Below, piece after piece: positions 50,115 through 62,594 of a DNA stretch of 64,000 nucleotides (positions are counted from its first letter, which is position 1; the number at the start of each line of letters is the position of its first letter). The notes beneath the pieces are model-generated. The model did not search any database, had not been told where the DNA came from, and saw nothing but the letters and a program-made list of their open reading frames with translations. The translations under genes and the position numbers were made by a program. The stretch is from Solimonas flava DSM 18980 (GTDB taxonomy: Bacteria; Pseudomonadota; Gammaproteobacteria; Nevskiales; Nevskiaceae): assembly GCF_000426685.1 (NCBI RefSeq), contig NZ_AUFV01000003.1, forward strand, positions 372,001-436,000. The letters run 5' to 3'.

Positions 50115-51037
50115 GCGACGCCGCCGGCTGGCAGCAGCAGCGCGAGCGCAGCACGGTTTTCATGCTGCGCCTGATCGTCGCCATCGCGCGCGTCTTCGGC
50201 CGCCGCGTCGCGCGCGTCTTTCTGTATCCGACGGTGCTGTACTTCGTGCTCGCCGGCGGCGCCCAGGGCCGCGCCTCGCGCGCCTACCTGCGCCGTGTGC
50301 TCGGCCGCGCGCCGACGCCGGCCGACCGCTGGCGCCACTTCTTCTGCTTCGCGAGCTGCATGCTCGACCGCCTGTTCCTGGTCGGCGGCTACACGCGCGG
50401 GCTCGATGTGCGGGTGACGCGCGACGCCGGCGTGCAGCGCCTGCTCGACGAGGGCCGCGGCGCGCTGCTGCTGCTCGCGCACGTCGGCAGCTTCGAGACG
50501 ATCCGCGTCACCGGCAGCGTCGAGCGGCGCATGCCGCTGCGTGTGGTGATGGATCGCGCGCACGGCGGCGTCTACACGGCGATCCTCGAACGGCTCAATC
50601 CGCAACTGGCGGCGCACATCCTCGACGCCGGCGAGCGCGGCCCGGATTTTCTGCTCAGGCTCAAGGCGGCGATCGAGCGCGGCGAGATCGTCTGCCTGAT
50701 GGCCGACCGCGCGCGCGACGGCGAGGCGACGCTGCGCGTGCCGCTGCTCGGCGGCGCGGTGGCGCTGCCGATGGCGCCGTGGATCGTCGCCAGCCTGCTG
50801 CAGGTGCCGGTGCTGACCGGCTTCGCCGTGCACCGCGGCGGCGGCCGCTACGATGCGTGCATCGAATGCTTCGCCGAGCGCGTGCAGGTCGAACGGCGCA
50901 CGCGTGCCGCCGACGCGCAGCGCTACGCCGAAGCCTATGCGCGCCGGCTCGAAGCCGTGCTGCGCGACGCGCCGTACAACTGGTTCAACTTCTATGACTA
51001 CTGGATCGACGATGCCCGCGACGATCGCGCCGCTTGA
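50111..51037 (+). CDS. LpxL/HtrB-type lipid acyltransferase of the pigment cluster
   Basis: The 308-residue enzyme belongs to the LpxL/HtrB family, with the HX4(D/E) box in LLLAHVGSFETIR, the VMDRAHGGVY acceptor region and MADRARDGEATLRVPLLGG. One N-terminal membrane segment anchors it. It may add the polyene or a fatty acid to the glycolipid anchor. The next ketosynthase gene starts 26 bases inside its 3' end. Confidence 0.88.
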   Translation: MSDAAGWQQQRERSTVFMLRLIVAIARVFGRRVARVFLYPTVLYFVLAGGAQGRASRAYLRRVLGRAPTPADRWRHFFCFASCMLDRLFLVGGYTRGLDVRVTRDAGVQRLLDEGRGALLLLAHVGSFETIRVTGSVERRMPLRVVMDRAHGGVYTAILERLNPQLAAHILDAGERGPDFLLRLKAAIERGEIVCLMADRARDGEATLRVPLLGGAVALPMAPWIVASLLQVPVLTGFAVHRGGGRYDACIECFAERVQVERRTRAADAQRYAEAYARRLEAVLRDAPYNWFNFYDYWIDDARDDRAA

Positions 51038-52232
51038 GCTCGCCGCCTGGACCGCGACGACCGCGCTCGGCCACGGCCGCGGCGCGCAGCTCGCGGCGCT
51101 GCGCGAGGGCCGCAGCGGCCTCGCCCAAACGCCGATCGCGGATGCCGTGCTCGGCGACTGCGGCCTGCAGACCTGGGTCGGCGCGGTCGCCGGCCTCGAC
51201 ACGCCGCTGGACGGCGCCTGGGCCGAGTGGGACTGCCGCAACAACCGGCTGGCGGCGCTGGCGCTGGCGCAGGACGGCTTCGCGGCGGCGGTCGCCGGGG
51301 CCCGCGCGCGGCTCGGCGCCGCGCGCATCGGCGTGTTCATCGGCACCTCGACCTCCGGCGTGCTGTCGACCGAGCTGGCGTACCGCGCGCGGGATCGCGA
51401 CGCGAACCGCCTGCCGGACAGCTTCCGGCACCGCACCACGCACAACCCGCAGGCCGCCGCCGAGTTCGTGCGCCTGCAGCTCGGGCTCGACAGCGTCGCG
51501 CTGGCGATCTGCACCGCCTGCTCGTCGAGCGCCAAGGTCTTCGCCGCGGCCAGCCGCGCGATCGCGGCCGGTGTCTGCGACGCGGCGGTGGTCGGCGGGG
51601 TCGACAGCCTGTGCCTGACGACGCTGTACGGCTTCAACGCCCTGCAGCTGGTGTCGTCGGAGATCTGCCGGCCGGCCGACGCGCAGCGGCGCGGCATCTC
51701 GATCGGCGAAGGCGCCGGCTTCGCGCTGCTGATGCCGGCGCGCGCGCCGGGCGCGCTGGCGCTGCTCGGCTACGGCGAGTCGTCCGATGCCTACCACATG
51801 AGCACGCCGGACCCGCAGGGCCGCGGCGCGGCGCTGGCGATGCGCGACGCGCTGGCGCGCGCCGGCCTGCCGGCCGCCGCCGTCGATTACGTGAACCTGC
51901 ACGGCACGGCGACGCCGGCCAACGACGCTTCCGAGGATCAGGGTGTCTGCGCGGTGTTCGGCGCGCGTGACGAGGGCGGGCCGCCGTGCAGCTCGACCAA
52001 GGGTTACACCGGCCACACGCTCGGCGCGGCCGGCATCGTCGAAGCCGTCTACGCGTGCCTCGCCGTCGAGCACGGTTTCGTGCCGCCGAGCCTGAACACG
52101 CGTACGCTCGATCCGGCGCTGCGCGCGCACTACGCGCTGGAGGCGCAGTCGCGGCCGCTGCGCATCGCCGCCTCGAATTCGTTCGGCTTCGGCGGCAACA
52201 ATGCCTGCCTGATCTTCGGGAGGGCCGCCTGA
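51012..52232 (+). CDS. Beta-ketoacyl-ACP synthase (FabB/F-like) of the pigment cluster, plus arm
   Basis: The 406-residue ketosynthase has the nucleophile Cys170 in CTACSSSAKV and histidines in NLHGTATPANDASE and GYTGHTLGAAG. It is followed directly by a Cys-less partner, so by analogy with ApeO-ApeC it is probably the catalytic half of a ketosynthase/chain-length-factor heterodimer. The ATG at 51012 overlaps the upstream acyltransferase by 26 bases; upstream in-frame sequence lacks family character. Confidence 0.9.
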   Translation: MPATIAPLELAAWTATTALGHGRGAQLAALREGRSGLAQTPIADAVLGDCGLQTWVGAVAGLDTPLDGAWAEWDCRNNRLAALALAQDGFAAAVAGARARLGAARIGVFIGTSTSGVLSTELAYRARDRDANRLPDSFRHRTTHNPQAAAEFVRLQLGLDSVALAICTACSSSAKVFAAASRAIAAGVCDAAVVGGVDSLCLTTLYGFNALQLVSSEICRPADAQRRGISIGEGAGFALLMPARAPGALALLGYGESSDAYHMSTPDPQGRGAALAMRDALARAGLPAAAVDYVNLHGTATPANDASEDQGVCAVFGARDEGGPPCSSTKGYTGHTLGAAGIVEAVYACLAVEHGFVPPSLNTRTLDPALRAHYALEAQSRPLRIAASNSFGFGGNNACLIFGRAA

Positions 52233-53011
52233 TGCGCGTCGCGATCGAGGCCATCGGCCTGGCTGCGCCGGGCCTGCCGGACTGGCCGTCGGCGGCGCGC
52301 GTGCTGCGCGGCGAGGCGGCGCACGAGGCCGTCGAGCTGCCGGCCTACGCGCCGCCGCTGCTGCCGCCGAACGAACGCCGCCGCGCGACGCCGGCGGTGC
52401 GTCAGGCGTTCCGCGTCGCCGAGGAGGCGATCGCCGGCCGCGACGCCCGCACCCTGGCGACGGTGTTCGCCGGCTCCGATGCCGACATGGCGATCCTGCA
52501 TCGCATCTGCGCGGCCGTCGCCGAGCCGCAGAAGCTCGTTTCGCCGACCGACTTCCACAACTCCGTGCACAACGCGGCTGCCGGCTATTGGGGCATCGCC
52601 GTCGGCTCGACCGCGCCGTCGACGACGCTGGCCGGCTACGACGGCTCGTTCGCGCTCGGTCTGTTCGAGGCGGCGCTGCAGGTCGTCAGCGACGCGCGCG
52701 ACGTGCTGCTCGTGGTGTTCGACGTGCCGGCGCCGCCGCCGCTGTTCGACGCGCGTCCGCTCGCTTGCGCGGCGAGCTGCGCACTGTGGCTGAAACCCGA
52801 AGGCGGCGCCGCGCCGCTCGGTCATCTCGACCTGGCGCTCGGCGACGGCGCCGAGACCACGCTCGATGCGCCCGCGCTCGAAGCGCTGCGTCTCGCCAAT
52901 CCGGCGCTGCGCGCGCTGCCGCTGCTGCGCCGCGTGGCGCGCGGCGAAGCCGGCGCGGTGGCGCTGCCGAACTCCGGCGGCCGCGCCCTGCAGCTGCACT
53001 GGCAGCCGTGA
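52232..53011 (+). CDS. Chain-length-factor-like ketosynthase partner (ApeC-like)
   Basis: The 259-residue protein is a shortened ketosynthase homologue of the Ketoacyl-synt_2 type, with FAGSDADMAILHRICAAV and the strong block SPTDFHNSVHNAAAGYW. No nucleophilic Cys occurs at the position where KS enzymes carry it (GSTAPSTTLAGYDGS), so it should be a structural, chain-length-determining subunit. The start overlaps the ketosynthase stop (TGATG), consistent with stoichiometric synthesis. Confidence 0.88.
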   Translation: MRVAIEAIGLAAPGLPDWPSAARVLRGEAAHEAVELPAYAPPLLPPNERRRATPAVRQAFRVAEEAIAGRDARTLATVFAGSDADMAILHRICAAVAEPQKLVSPTDFHNSVHNAAAGYWGIAVGSTAPSTTLAGYDGSFALGLFEAALQVVSDARDVLLVVFDVPAPPPLFDARPLACAASCALWLKPEGGAAPLGHLDLALGDGAETTLDAPALEALRLANPALRALPLLRRVARGEAGAVALPNSGGRALQLHWQP

Positions 53012-55457: not shown

Positions 55458-56645
55458 CTACGCGCGGCGCATCTTCGCCATCAGCGCGGCGAGCTGCTGC
55501 ACGGCGGCTTCGGATTCGGCGTAGTTCGGCGTCGCGTCGGCATTGCCGTAGTCGCCGGGCGCGCCGGTCTGCACGACGATGCCGTCGCGGCGCGGCACCA
55601 CGAACAGCGAGCCGTAGCTGAGGCCGTAATCCACTTCCGGCTGCGGGATCAGGCGCCCGATCTGGCCGCGCACCGGCACCACGCTGTCGTCGCCGAACAG
55701 CGCGCGCGCGCCGTAGCCGGTGCAGTTGACCAGCGTCTTCTCGGGCAGCTTCTCGAGGTCGGCCGGGCGTTCGAACTCGCGCGTCTCGATGCGTCCGCCG
55801 CCGCGCTCGAAGTCCTCGATCAGCAGGCGCGAGTAGCTGCTGAGGTTGTAGACCATCGTCGTGTAGCGGCGCACGTAGGGCACCGGGAACGGATGCGCGC
55901 CGGCCGGAATGTCCTGCGAGCGCGGCCACAGCGAGCGGATCAGCGGCAGCAGATTGGCGTAGACGGGTTCGCCGTCGCCGTCGCCTTCGCCGTGGCCGCC
56001 GTTGAACGGCTCGTCGGCGAGCGCGTAGCCGTCGCGCCATTCGACCGGATCGCCGGGCAGGCCGAGCATCGTCTGATAGGTGCGGAACGATTCGCGCGCC
56101 ATCGTTTCCCAGCGCGCGACGGCGTCCGGCGTCGCGTGCTCGGCGGTGCAGTAGCGCGAGTCCGGCGACCACACGCCGGTCGCGCGCGAGGAGCGCACTT
56201 CCGGCGGACGTTCGCGGGCGTAGATCGTCACCTTCAGGCCGGCCCGCTGCGCGAGCAGCGCCGTGGTGAGGCCGATGGCGCCGCAGCCGATCACGCCGAC
56301 CTCGGCGACCTGCGTCGCCAGCACCTCGCGCAGCGCGAGCCGGGCCGAGCCCCAGGACAGCGACCAGCCGCTGCCGCCGTGGCCGTAGTGATGGACCACG
56401 GTCTTGCGGCCGAGCTTCTCGGCCTCGATGCGCGGCCCTTGCGCGCGAAACGGCCGCGTGCAGACCGTGATCGCGATCAGCCGGTCCGGCCGCGCGCGGA
56501 TCGGCGCCAGCGGCGGCAGCGGATCGTAGTCGGCCGCCGACGCGGCGGCCGAAGCGACGGCGCGCGGCGTGCTCGCGCAGCCGCTCGCCATGGCGCCGAG
56601 CGCCAGCGTGGCGCCGGTCGTGCGCAGAAAGTCGCGACGTTGCAT
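55458..56645 (-). CDS. Tat-exported FAD-dependent lipoprotein, D-amino-acid-oxidase family, apparently circularly permuted
   Basis: The 395-residue product starts with a twin-arginine motif (RRDFLR, residues 3-8) and a lipobox SGC (Cys23), so it should be a Tat-exported lipoprotein. The FAD Rossmann motif VGVIGCGAIGL is at residues 116-126. Before it, at residues 58-103, lies TVCTRPFRAQGPR and HHYGHGGSGWSLSWGSA, the element that closes the C-terminus of normal D-amino-acid oxidases (GxRPxR, NYGHGG). The C-terminus here stops after the PRRDGIVVQTG strand and following helix. The domain order is therefore rotated. Substrate is probably a D-amino acid or related amine. AGGGAG precedes the ATG. 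Confidence 0.85.
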   Translation of the reverse strand: MQRRDFLRTTGATLALGAMASGCASTPRAVASAAASAADYDPLPPLAPIRARPDRLIAITVCTRPFRAQGPRIEAEKLGRKTVVHHYGHGGSGWSLSWGSARLALREVLATQVAEVGVIGCGAIGLTTALLAQRAGLKVTIYARERPPEVRSSRATGVWSPDSRYCTAEHATPDAVARWETMARESFRTYQTMLGLPGDPVEWRDGYALADEPFNGGHGEGDGDGEPVYANLLPLIRSLWPRSQDIPAGAHPFPVPYVRRYTTMVYNLSSYSRLLIEDFERGGGRIETREFERPADLEKLPEKTLVNCTGYGARALFGDDSVVPVRGQIGRLIPQPEVDYGLSYGSLFVVPRRDGIVVQTGAPGDYGNADATPNYAESEAAVQQLAALMAKMRRA

Positions 56646-58998: not shown

Positions 58999-61656
58999 AT
59001 GCGGCGGCTCGCGAAATACCAGCAGATGCGGCGCTTCGATGTGACCGCGGAGCCCAGCGGCCGCGAGCCACCGGCAGCGCGCCGCGGTGTCCGCGCGCGG
59101 CTGCGCTACGTGATCCAGCTGCATCACGCGCGGCGCCGGCACTTCGACTTCCGCCTCGAACTCGGCGGCACACTGCGCAGCTGGGCGGTGCCCAAGGGCC
59201 CGTCGCGCGATCCGGCGCAGAAGCGGCTCGCGGTCGAGGTCGAGGATCATCCGATCGCTTATGGCGATTTCGAGGGCGACATCCCGGCCGGCCAGTACGG
59301 CGCCGGCCATGTCGACATCTGGGATCGCGGCTGGTGGGAGCCGGAAGACGCCGATGCCGACGCCGCGATTCGCAAGGGCCATCTGCATTTCACGCTGCAC
59401 GGCGAGCGCCTGCAGGGCCGCTGGTCGCTGGTGCGCACGCATCTGGCCGGCCGGCAGCCGCAGTGGCTGCTGATCAAGAGCGACGACGCACACGCGCAGG
59501 CACCGGACGTGGCCGATGACGTCGTGCTGCGCGAGTGGCGCGCGCAGCACGACGGCGCGCGCCGCGGCCGCGCGGCGGCGGCCTCTGCCGGGACGGCGCA
59601 GGCCGCCGCGAGCGCCGGCACGCGCGCGCGCCGCCGCGCCGATCCGCCGCGCGACCCGTTTCCGCAGCAGGTCGGGCTGCAGCTGGCGCGCTTGTCCGCG
59701 CGCGCGCCGGCTGGCGCCGAGTGGGTGCACGAGATCAAGTACGACGGCTATCGCTTCCTGGCGATGCGCGAAGGCCGCCGTCTGCGCATCGTCTCGCGCA
59801 ACGGCCTCGACTGGACCGCGAAGCTGCCGGCGGTGAAGGCCGCGGTGCTGGCCCTGCCGTGCCGCGACTGCATCCTCGACGGCGAACTCGTCGCCTTCGA
59901 CGAGCACGGGCGCAGCCGCTTCGACCTGCTGCAGCAGCGTTTCGGCGAAGGCGGCGAGCTGCAGGCCGTGGTTTTCGATCTGCTCTACCTCGACGGCCGC
60001 GATCTGCGCGGCGAGGCGCAGGACACGCGCAAGGCCGCGCTGCAGCGGCTCCTCGCCGCTGCGCCGCCGCCGCTGCAGCGCTCCGAATACCTCGTCGGCG
60101 ACGGCCCCGAGGCGGCCAGCGCCGCGTGCCGGCTCGGGCTCGAAGGCATCGTCAGCAAGTCGCGGCTGGCGCCGTACCGCGAAGGCCGCGGCGGGGCCTG
60201 GCTGAAGATCAAATGCGTGCAGTCCGACGAGTTCGTGATCGTCGGCTACACCGCCGGCCGTGGCGCGCGCGCCGCACTCGGCTCGCTGCTGCTGGCGCGG
60301 CCGCAGGGCCGCGGCCGGCCGTGGCGTTACGTCGGCCGCGTCGGCAGCGGCATCAGCGACGCCCGGCTCGCCGAACTGCGCGCCGCGCTGCGGCCGGCGA
60401 AGACGCCCGTCGAACTGGCGAACCCGCCGGGCCGCGCCGAGCTGCGCGGCGCGCATCCGATCTGGGTGCGGCCGGAGCGGGTCGTCGAGGTCGAATTCCG
60501 GGCCTGGACCGACGACGGTCTGCTGCGCCAGGCCAGCCTCAAGGGCCTGCGCCCGGACAAGTCGCCGGCCGATGTCGCGAGTCCGGATCGCGCGCCGCAG
60601 GTCGAAACGCTCGCCGCGTCCAGCGGCCGCCCGGCGCGCGCCGGGCCGGGCGCGAAAAAAGCCACGGCGCGCGCGACGAGCCGCAAGGCGCGGGCCGGCA
60701 AGACCGGCAAGAGCGGCGGCCGGACGCGCGCCAAGCCCACGCGCGCGGCAGCGCGCAGGGCCTCGGTGCCGACCGCGCGCGCGCGCCGCAAGGCCGGCGA
60801 TCCGCCGGCGCCGTACCCGTTCACGCATCCGGAGCGGCAGGTCTTCACCGATCCGCCGGTGACCAAGGCCGAGATCGGCGCGCTCTATACGGACATCGCG
60901 GCGCAGATTCTGCCCGGCATCGTCGACCGGCCGCTGGCGATGCTGCGCTGCCCCGACGGCATCGGCGGCGAATGCTTCTTTCAGAAGCACCTGACCCCGG
61001 GCTTTCGCGACGCGGTGCACGCCGCGCGTGCCAAGGCCGACCGCGATCCTTACGTCTACATCGAAGACCTCGACGGCCTGCTCGCGCTGGTGCAGATGAA
61101 CGTTGTCGAGATCCACGCCTGGGGTGCGCCGCTCGCGCGCCCGGATACGCCGGACCGCATCGTCTTCGATCTCGATCCGGCGCCGGACGTCGCCTGGTCC
61201 GCGGTCAGGGCGGCGGCGCTCGCGGTGCGCGAGCGGCTGAGCGCGCTGCGCCTCGAATCGTTCGTGCGCGCCACCGGCGGCAAGGGCCTGCACGTGGTCG
61301 TGCCGCTGACCGGCGACGACGGCTGGGACGCCGCGAAATCGTTCGCGCACGCGCTGGCCAGCACGCTCGCGCAGGAAGCGCCGCAGCGCTATGTCGACGT
61401 CGCCAGCAAGGCCCGCCGCGGCGGGCACGTGTTCATCGACTATCTGCGCAATGCGCGCGGCGCCACCAGCATCGCCAGCTACAGCCTGCGCGCCCGCCCC
61501 GGCGCGCCGCTCGCCGTGCCGCTCGGCTGGGACGAGCTGCCGAAGCTGCGCTCGGCCGCGCAGTACCACATCGGCAACATCCGCGAACGCATCGCCAAAC
61601 GGCCCGAGCCCTGGGCCGGCATCGACGATGTCGAGCAGGCGCTGCCGCGCCGCTGA
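58999..61656 (+). CDS. ligD: NHEJ DNA ligase LigD (phosphoesterase-ligase-polymerase)
   Basis: The 885-residue multidomain enzyme repairs double-strand breaks with Ku. The 3'-phosphoesterase domain comes first (about residues 30-165, HHARRRHFDFRLELGG). The ATP-dependent ligase is in the middle, with catalytic Lys247 in EIKYDGYR and GIVSKSR. A basic Lys/Arg/Ala linker spans about residues 550-605. The primase-like polymerase is last, with catalytic Asp724/Asp726 in VFDLDPAPD. This PE-LIG-POL order matches Pseudomonas, not Mycobacterium. AAGGAG precedes the ATG; ku follows by 17 bases. Confidence 0.96.
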   Translation: MRRLAKYQQMRRFDVTAEPSGREPPAARRGVRARLRYVIQLHHARRRHFDFRLELGGTLRSWAVPKGPSRDPAQKRLAVEVEDHPIAYGDFEGDIPAGQYGAGHVDIWDRGWWEPEDADADAAIRKGHLHFTLHGERLQGRWSLVRTHLAGRQPQWLLIKSDDAHAQAPDVADDVVLREWRAQHDGARRGRAAAASAGTAQAAASAGTRARRRADPPRDPFPQQVGLQLARLSARAPAGAEWVHEIKYDGYRFLAMREGRRLRIVSRNGLDWTAKLPAVKAAVLALPCRDCILDGELVAFDEHGRSRFDLLQQRFGEGGELQAVVFDLLYLDGRDLRGEAQDTRKAALQRLLAAAPPPLQRSEYLVGDGPEAASAACRLGLEGIVSKSRLAPYREGRGGAWLKIKCVQSDEFVIVGYTAGRGARAALGSLLLARPQGRGRPWRYVGRVGSGISDARLAELRAALRPAKTPVELANPPGRAELRGAHPIWVRPERVVEVEFRAWTDDGLLRQASLKGLRPDKSPADVASPDRAPQVETLAASSGRPARAGPGAKKATARATSRKARAGKTGKSGGRTRAKPTRAAARRASVPTARARRKAGDPPAPYPFTHPERQVFTDPPVTKAEIGALYTDIAAQILPGIVDRPLAMLRCPDGIGGECFFQKHLTPGFRDAVHAARAKADRDPYVYIEDLDGLLALVQMNVVEIHAWGAPLARPDTPDRIVFDLDPAPDVAWSAVRAAALAVRERLSALRLESFVRATGGKGLHVVVPLTGDDGWDAAKSFAHALASTLAQEAPQRYVDVASKARRGGHVFIDYLRNARGATSIASYSLRARPGAPLAVPLGWDELPKLRSAAQYHIGNIRERIAKRPEPWAGIDDVEQALPRR

Positions 61657-61673
61657 CGCCAGGAGAGCACCGC

Positions 61674-62594
61674 ATGGCCAAGCCGCTGTGGAATGGCGCC
61701 ATCTCGTTCGGACTGCTGCACATTCCGGTGCAGCTGATGAGCGGCGAGCGCCGGGTCGATCTGCACTTTCACCTCGTCGATTCGCGCGACAACTCGCGCG
61801 TCCGCTACGAGCGCGTCAGCGAGGAGACCGGCGAGGAGGTGCCATGGAAGGACATCGCCAAGGCCTTCGAATACGAGAAAGGCAATTACGTCGTGCTGCG
61901 GGACGAGGACTTCCGGAACGCGGCCCCCGAGAGCAGCGAGTCGGTCGACATCGAGGCTTTCGTGGACCCGTCCGAAGTCGGCCCCGAATACTTCGAGCGG
62001 CCCTATTACCTCGTGCCGCCGAAGAAAGCCGAGAAAGGCTATGTGCTGCTGCGCGAGACGCTCAAGGCGCTGCACAAGGTGGCGATCGCCCGCGTCGTGA
62101 TCCGGACGCGCGAGAGCCTGGCGATGGTGCGGCCCAGCGGCGACGCGCTGCAGCTGCTGTTGCTGCGCTATCCGCAGGAACTCGTCGCGAGCGACGCGTA
62201 CCACTTTCCGTCCGGCTCCGCGAAAAGCCACCGCATCAGCCCGCGCGAGTCCGCCATGGCGCGCCAGCTGGTCGAGTCGATGAGCGACCGCTTCCGGCCG
62301 GCGCAGTACAAGGACGAGTTCCGCGAAAAGCTCAGCCGCGCGATTCGCGAACGCCTCAAGCGCAAGGGCGCGCGCATCGCCCGCAAGCTCGAAGCCGAGC
62401 CGGCGCACGAAGGCTCCGACAAGGTGGTCGATTTCATGGCGCTGCTGCGCAAGAGCATCGAGACCAACCAGCGCACGCTCGCACAGACGGCGCATCGCCC
62501 CGCGGCCGAAAAGCCGGCCCGCAAACGCCTGCACGCCAAGGCCAGGCCGGCCGCTCCCAAGAAGACGCGCCGCTCGCCGCGCAAGCGTGCGTGA
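61674..62594 (+). CDS. ku: Non-homologous end joining protein Ku
   Basis: The 306-residue bacterial Ku homodimer threads onto broken DNA ends and recruits LigD. The Ku core starts at KPLWNGAISFGLLHIPVQL and includes YERVSEETGEEVPWKDIAKAFEYEKG. The minimal C-terminal region ends in a lysine/arginine-rich tail of about 30 residues that helps DNA binding in other bacterial Ku proteins. AGGAGAG precedes the ATG. It forms a two-gene NHEJ unit with ligD. Confidence 0.96.
   Translation: MAKPLWNGAISFGLLHIPVQLMSGERRVDLHFHLVDSRDNSRVRYERVSEETGEEVPWKDIAKAFEYEKGNYVVLRDEDFRNAAPESSESVDIEAFVDPSEVGPEYFERPYYLVPPKKAEKGYVLLRETLKALHKVAIARVVIRTRESLAMVRPSGDALQLLLLRYPQELVASDAYHFPSGSAKSHRISPRESAMARQLVESMSDRFRPAQYKDEFREKLSRAIRERLKRKGARIARKLEAEPAHEGSDKVVDFMALLRKSIETNQRTLAQTAHRPAAEKPARKRLHAKARPAAPKKTRRSPRKRA

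Follow-up and report, generated by a model that had tools for sequence, protein, structure and literature searches.

A minus-strand gene of Solimonas flava (positions 55458-56645 of the window, the whole 64 000-nucleotide stretch of DNA analysed here) very likely encodes a natural circular permutant of the D-amino-acid oxidase (DAAO)/DDO fold. The product is predicted to be a FAD-binding, Tat-exported enzyme, whose most likely reaction is the oxidation of a small amino- or imino-carboxylate and which is probably tethered in Solimonas. Few flavoenzymes have been studied as much as DAAO, in which the FAD motif is assumed to be N-terminal. In this protein of 395 amino acids, the order of the motifs is rotated, as the initial annotation had noticed: the RPFR..HHYGHGG element (residues 56-109) comes ahead of the Rossmann GxGxxG motif (residues 115-126), and the C-terminus stops where a normal DAAO enters the GxRPxR element, as indicated by both the motif order and the matches to PDB sequences. 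The circular permutation of a DAAO-type enzyme proposed in that annotation is borne out by rotation scans with canonical controls, profile matches that are split before rotation and joined after it, a confident structural model, and homologues with the same order. Under this reading, the element that closes normal DAAOs (the strand with the carboxylate-binding Arg, two more strands, the GHGG loop and the last helix) would now open the protein, the old C-terminus would be joined to the first Rossmann strand by a five-residue loop, and the new termini would lie in the loop preceding the GxRPxR strand.

The open reading frame starts with an ATG at position 56645, with a likely ribosome-binding site, AGGGAG (56655-56650), 4 bases 5' of it, and the resulting MQRR start aligns with the start in several relatives. 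A search of the 4.46-Mb genome with the protein (E-value limit of 1) gives a single match, and the dN/dS of the gene against the Solimonas variicoloris and S. soli orthologues is 0.23 and 0.46, respectively. The encoded parts follow one another, all on the minus strand, from a putative Tat-type signal peptide (residues 1-22, 56580-56645), which begins with MQRRDFLR, and Cys23 (56577-56579) of a weak lipobox, ASGC (residues 20-23), a candidate lipidation site that is not conserved across the family, through a linker predicted mostly with low confidence (residues 24-55, 56481-56576), to the moved element (residues 56-109, 56319-56480), which is homologous to the C-terminal part of canonical DAAOs and contains TRPFR (63-67), with R64 corresponding to R283 of the pig enzyme, and HHYGHGG (85-91). 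A junction (residues 110-114, 56304-56318) between a predicted helix (97-109) and a predicted strand (115-119) links the former C-terminus to the former N-terminus. It leads into the first Rossmann strand and the nucleotide-binding motif (residues 115-126, 56268-56303; VIGCGAIGL, 118-126), which is recognised in the sequence, by Pfam and in the model. The Rossmann and substrate-binding part (residues 115-395, 55461-56303) matches canonical DAAO from the N-terminus of the latter on; it includes F348 (55602-55604), which aligns with the substrate-binding Tyr, pig Y228, and ends in a final helix (375-394). The GxGxxG feature of the DAAO/DDO family is thus present (GCGAIG, 120-125), but not the family order of an N-terminal GxGxxG and a C-terminal GHGG.

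The swap can be read from a single pairwise comparison. Residues 324-372 of the fungal DAAO 7ct4 match residues 60-108 of the Solimonas protein (domain E 9.4e-7), and residues 25-241 of the same chain match residues 115-331; because the two segments match in swapped order, the rotation cannot be attributed to chance. The Pfam DAO profile (PF01266) matches the protein in its natural order with 96 bits, compared with a gathering score of 27.9, in two stretches, the best of which covers profile positions 2-298 of 353; when residues 113-395 are placed before residues 46-112, a single stretch covers positions 2-350 with 105 bits. In a search of PDB sequences with the rotated protein, 15 of the 18 listed chains were matched in one stretch, from residue 4 to at least residue 339, and 6rkf was still matched in two pieces, now in the canonical order. 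The whole-sequence phmmer scores barely increased upon rotation, from 67.0 to 70.6 bits for 6rkf and from 58.6 to 59.0 bits for 7ct4, so that the benefit of rotation in phmmer lies in the joining of pieces and not in the total score. A second, C-terminal element of the GHGG type is not found in the 395 residues, which hold only one such element in all. A GGHGEG run near residue 216 was considered as a second copy and rejected as it does not fit the pattern.

In a rotation scan, the cut through residues 39-395 was moved five residues at a time, and each of the 72 resulting orders was compared with a profile of 11 canonical enzymes. The natural order gave a best single-domain score of 109 bits (profile positions 2-260 of 316), and the scan peaked at 162.7 bits (positions 3-311) with the cut placed before residue 114, closely followed by 162.6 bits at residue 109, with lower scores on either side. 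The canonical controls, scored with leave-one-out profiles, were all (11 of 11) best unrotated or within 0.2 bits of the unrotated score. Among 55 permuted proteins, the one from the window included, 52 gained on rotation, with a median of 59.7 bits over all 55 and the best cut of the gaining proteins 2-7 residues before the GxGxxG strand; the gain was at most 0.2 bits in the remaining three (L036, L053 and L055). By these scans, a full-length match to the parent family appears only after rotation at one point, as expected of a circular permutant.

The predicted structure agrees with the sequence analysis. The AlphaFold2 model, built from a 26-row alignment, has a mean pLDDT of 88.4 and a pTM of 0.85, with residues 1-5 and 7-36 below a pLDDT of 50. 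The moved element is modelled as three strands and a helix (block-mean pLDDT 94-98) and is connected by a loop of five residues to the Rossmann strand, which starts at residue 115, and the chain ends in the terminal helix; this short junction implies that the old termini would be close together in the parent fold. The model of a clade B relative with 38% identity (L030) has a pTM of 0.83 and the same order of elements. In Foldseek searches against the PDB, the 33 best matches were DAAO/DDO chains for both the window model (288-316 columns, TMq 0.50-0.57) and the L030 model (272-315 columns, TMq 0.53-0.60), among them 4qfd and 4qfc, which we take to be DAAO/DDO chains; the top match of the window model has an E-value of 4e-15 over 290 columns, aligned in sequence order only. 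Because Foldseek aligns in sequence order, the moved element stays outside these alignments, and the TMq values for the window model are what a sequential aligner would give on a permutant. Model confidence and homology together suggest that the GHGG element packs on the FAD site.

The rotated order is not a peculiarity of S. flava. A scan of species genomes yielded 33 related loci, the closest in S. variicoloris (95% identity) and S. soli (79%), and the order could be read in 32 of them, the exception being a damaged fragment (L032). Whole proteins number 55, namely, the one in the window, 31 from the species scan, 19 from a phylum sample and 4 from a plasmid collection, where the same species may recur from two collections, and all 55 are rotated; the search for homologues of the rotated order called for in the initial annotation thus found this order in 54 of the 54 relatives that can be read whole. 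The hosts belong to five phyla: Pseudomonadota, Verrucomicrobiota, Acidobacteriota and Myxococcota, the last three represented by metagenome assemblies only, and Actinomycetota, represented by Nonomuraea (L055). Within these, the distribution is patchy, with relatives in 20 of the 398 genomes of the phylum sample, the window's own included, in one of the 369 genomes of the class sample, again the window's own, and in 3 of the 58 genomes of the family, all three among the 11 genomes of the genus, a pattern that suggests horizontal transfer or frequent loss. A canonical DAAO query run against 299 genomes of the phylum gave seven matches, five of them permuted genes already known, one a ThiO-like gene (L068) and one with the coding strand unread (L067), so that no canonical DAAO was confirmed by this query in the sampled Pseudomonadota genomes. 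Pseudomonadota do have canonical DAAOs: L076 lies on plasmids of Burkholderia glumae, and plasmid records from Vibrio, with the order unread, also match the canonical query. On plasmid pOM4 of Mesorhizobium onobrychidis (L061:1735-2798), a relative from clade C spans two overlapping ORFs, broken just past GxGxxG, and represents a copy that has been split or has decayed. The most divergent permuted member, in Candidatus Finniella (L033:5962-7053), has no RR signal and carries Pro in place of the Trp of the WG pair found in the other 47 permuted rows.

A tree was built from the rotated sequences of 48 permuted proteins and 11 canonical ones, a small canonical sample made up of eight bacterial-plasmid proteins and three PDB chains. 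The alignments and trees exclude L031, which contains a run of N, L032, which is damaged, and L061, which spans two ORFs, and seven near-copies (L004, L016, L017, L019, L021, L022 and L051) were left out of the trees and residue counts. A single branch separates the permuted from the canonical order, with an SH-aLRT support of 98 for all columns and 99 for the Rossmann and substrate-binding part alone. The clade labels A (with the window protein), B and C come from this tree, in which clade C and L033 stand apart, L033 on a very long branch of unsure placement. Clade A has the motif GSGWSLSWG, and the canonical motifs are better kept in clade B.

Two alternatives bear on the reality and the history of the rotation. 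A gene fusion or an assembly artefact, with an N-terminal element foreign to the fold, is hardly credible: the order is common to all relatives read whole, which is the ground for rejecting both, GHGG and the Rossmann motif lie 30-31 residues apart in 19 of 23 loci (L036-L058) and 35 residues apart in the other 4, and the AlphaFold2 pLDDT and pTM are high. Assembly error in particular is refuted by the order in the 32 readable relatives of the species scan, those of S. variicoloris and S. soli included. The permutation could also have arisen more than once. The tree of the moved element alone (53 columns) requires three changes of the order label, and when one distant ThiO-like outgroup is added, the permuted and canonical groups each hold together with the support down to 52 for the former and at 58 for the latter. 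Against this, one branch divides the two orders with the high support given above, and the cut site is the same in the 52 gaining proteins, which makes multiple origins quite unlikely. One origin of the rotation is the simplest reading, rather than a proven one, and is consistent with the single separating branch.

The signal for Tat export that the initial annotation recognised is supported by the conservation of its RR motif. The Pfam TAT_signal profile gives 16.4 bits for the window protein, below the cut-off of 22.7, but the protein has a twin-arginine motif with a hydrophobic stretch (RRDFLR), and the RR motif is present in 39 of the 40 clade A rows and in all 10 of clade B, compared with 1 of 4 in clade C and none in L033, which points to export in clades A and B. 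The lipobox is more scattered: the pattern was found in 13 of the 40 rows of clade A and in 7 of the 10 of clade B, but in none of the four clade C rows and not in L033. For 23 of the loci (L036-L058), these RR and lipobox patterns, which have no chance control, were sought in at most 85 residues before RP[FY][RL], with start codons unfixed; in L042, the pattern picked an upstream RR and missed a lipobox seen by eye. Taken together, the counts indicate that the export signal marks clades A and B, that lipidation varies and that permutation occurs without either. Accordingly, the part of the earlier claim that made the protein a lipoprotein is plausible only: Cys23 is a candidate and S. soli has LSAC, but the ASGC lipobox of the window protein is weak and most clade A rows scored none. 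The protein would fold with FAD in the cytoplasm before its Tat-mediated translocation across the membrane; in Solimonas, it would then probably be tethered as a lipoprotein.

Outside, a small amino- or imino-carboxylate would most likely be oxidised by hydride transfer to FAD, with R64 gripping the carboxylate. In the description of the DAAO site taken from PMC6697736, Arg and Tyr contact the substrate carboxylate and Gly the amino group. In the alignment, the Arg and the Gly are both found in the Solimonas protein: all 59 rows have R64, H85, Y87, H89, G90 and G93, and G88 and G91, the latter aligned with pig G313, are kept in 58 of 59. An invariant Arg favours a carboxylate substrate. The Tyr is not found in the Solimonas protein, which has F348 at this position; Tyr occupies it in 9 of the 11 canonical rows and in every row of clades B (9 rows) and C (4 rows), compared with 4 of 34 in clade A and 0 of 1 for L033. 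Clade A further shows the consensus S/T-P-D at pig Q53-P54-Y55, with Asp at the Y55 position in 27 of 34 rows, and lacks the GG of the LGGT segment (pig 238-241) in all 34 rows, a pair that is present in 10 of the 11 canonical rows and throughout clades B (9 rows) and C (4 rows). The losses of Tyr and LGGT suggest that specificity has changed in clade A, so that the activity of the window clade may differ from classical D-amino-acid oxidation.

Two further alternatives concern the export signal and the substrate. The permutation may have been selected because it permits N-terminal export and anchoring, a view favoured by the RR motif in 49 of the 50 rows of clades A and B and by the lack of such a signal, as judged by eye, at all five canonical bacterial N-termini inspected (L060, L070, L073, L075 and L076), a small number. 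It appears unlikely nevertheless, given that three of the four clade C rows and L033 are permuted yet signal-less and that a long linker precedes the fold. The related proposal of the initial annotation, that the permutation puts the new N-terminus at the membrane, is likewise not supported, since a low-confidence tail up to residue 36 precedes the fold and signal-less permuted members exist; with the lipobox patchy and three of four clade C members without a signal, the rotation does not seem to be tied to anchoring. The other alternative accepts the permuted DAAO fold but has clade A moved to another substrate (cyclic amines, opine-like compounds and hydroxy acids are candidates) and passing electrons to a periplasmic cytochrome instead of oxygen. 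The residue changes of clade A just described, both the losses of Tyr and LGGT and the S/T-P-D consensus, speak for this, as does a cytochrome c gene located 5 bases downstream of the permuted gene in Kozakia. Conversely, R64, G91 and the GHGG element are retained, and the Kozakia cytochrome matches nothing in the other loci compared. We regard this shift as possible, although not as the favoured reading; the protein itself is most likely an exported FAD-dependent amino-acid oxidoreductase.

In the window, a DUF1272 gene comes after the permuted gene, which itself stands back to back with a DUF4442 gene. No operon common to the whole family was detected, and no neighbour family occurred in more than 3 of 27 loci (26 permuted and 1 canonical) in BLAST clustering, for which the gene caller was crude and overlooked real genes, among them the cytochrome c gene of Kozakia and, in Rhizobium, the gene for a thiamine-diphosphate enzyme. 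A tblastn search with chosen neighbours revealed a recurrent arrangement in 11 loci of the Roseateles clade (L014-L022, L024 and L026), with a penicillinase-repressor (BlaI-type) gene and a BlaR1-M56/Peptidase_S11 DD-carboxypeptidase fusion upstream, the end of the fusion being at most 35 bases from the permuted gene in 10 of the 11 loci and 374 bases in L014; three fusions and one repressor were checked with Pfam. The same search detected neither of them in L009, a locus likewise named Pelomonas, or in L011. This recurrent arrangement is a hint of periplasmic D-alanine for the Roseateles clade. In three of the five clade C loci (L055, L056 and L061), the permuted gene has a gene for a thiamine-diphosphate enzyme next to it, with no tblastn match in L077 and L078, and such a neighbour would fit the use of a keto-acid product. 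The Rhizobium gene (L056) is also adjoined by a berberine-bridge-type FAD oxidoreductase, and the clade C gene and its neighbours are possibly a small biosynthetic cluster. Elsewhere in the window, two ketosynthase-type genes lie amid acyltransferase-like ORFs (50853-53008), a stretch that resembles an aryl-polyene-type cluster, and a full LigD with phosphoesterase, ligase and primase-polymerase domains is encoded together with a Ku domain in the next ORF (58999-62594), a bacterial end-joining pair.

Among characterized enzymes, the best sequence and Foldseek matches are DAAO/DDO proteins (human DASPO 6rkf, pig DAAO 1an9 and Rasamsonia DAAO 7ct4), which share with the Solimonas protein the Rossmann FAD motif, the carboxylate-binding Arg, the GHGG element and the substrate-binding part. 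The differences are the transfer of about 55 residues from the end to the front, the Tat-type signal and Phe in place of the substrate Tyr; compared with mammalian DAAO, the active-site-lid stretch is also shorter. Canonical bacterial DAAOs (Tsukamurella, L060; Streptomyces, L071) have the same elements and motifs as the permuted proteins but in the canonical order, and an export signal was seen in none of the five N-termini mentioned above. Glycine oxidase ThiO and monomeric sarcosine oxidase, which belong to the same Pfam DAO superfamily, are weaker Foldseek matches to the models; the ThiO model scores the window protein at 35.1 bits, compared with a cut-off of 250.8, and the ThiO-like L068 has the canonical order and no GHGG element. 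By descent and motifs, the protein belongs to the DAAO family, from which it differs in the order of elements and, across clade A, in the Tyr feature. No NCBIfam model reached its cut-off for the window protein among the matches listed (best 25 of 59), and no evident report of a permuted DAAO was found among the papers listed by searches of the open-access full-text literature of PMC.

As a natural permutant, the protein indicates that the loop preceding the GxRPxR strand of the DAAO fold can accommodate new termini, a point relevant to enzyme engineering and to the evolution of permutations. It also exposes an annotation gap: the permuted relatives whose annotation was inspected are called merely FAD-dependent oxidoreductases, so that a family of apparently exported, amino-acid-oxidase-like enzymes has been overlooked. 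The Asaia bogorensis protein A0A060QKK3, which PMC12502724 gives as a D-amino acid oxidase in its set of identified proteins, might be of the permuted kind. In a broader scenario, which we consider doubtful as a whole, a single old permutation founded a widespread DAAO-like branch, perhaps the commoner form in Pseudomonadota, because the canonical query in 299 genomes gave five permuted genes and no confirmed canonical DAAO, with its Tat-exported clades carrying out the oxidation of D-amino acids or related compounds at the outer side of the inner membrane and feeding electrons to periplasmic carriers. If this were the case, an example substrate would be the D-alanine released by DD-carboxypeptidases, a gene for which is the upstream neighbour of the permuted gene in the Roseateles clade.
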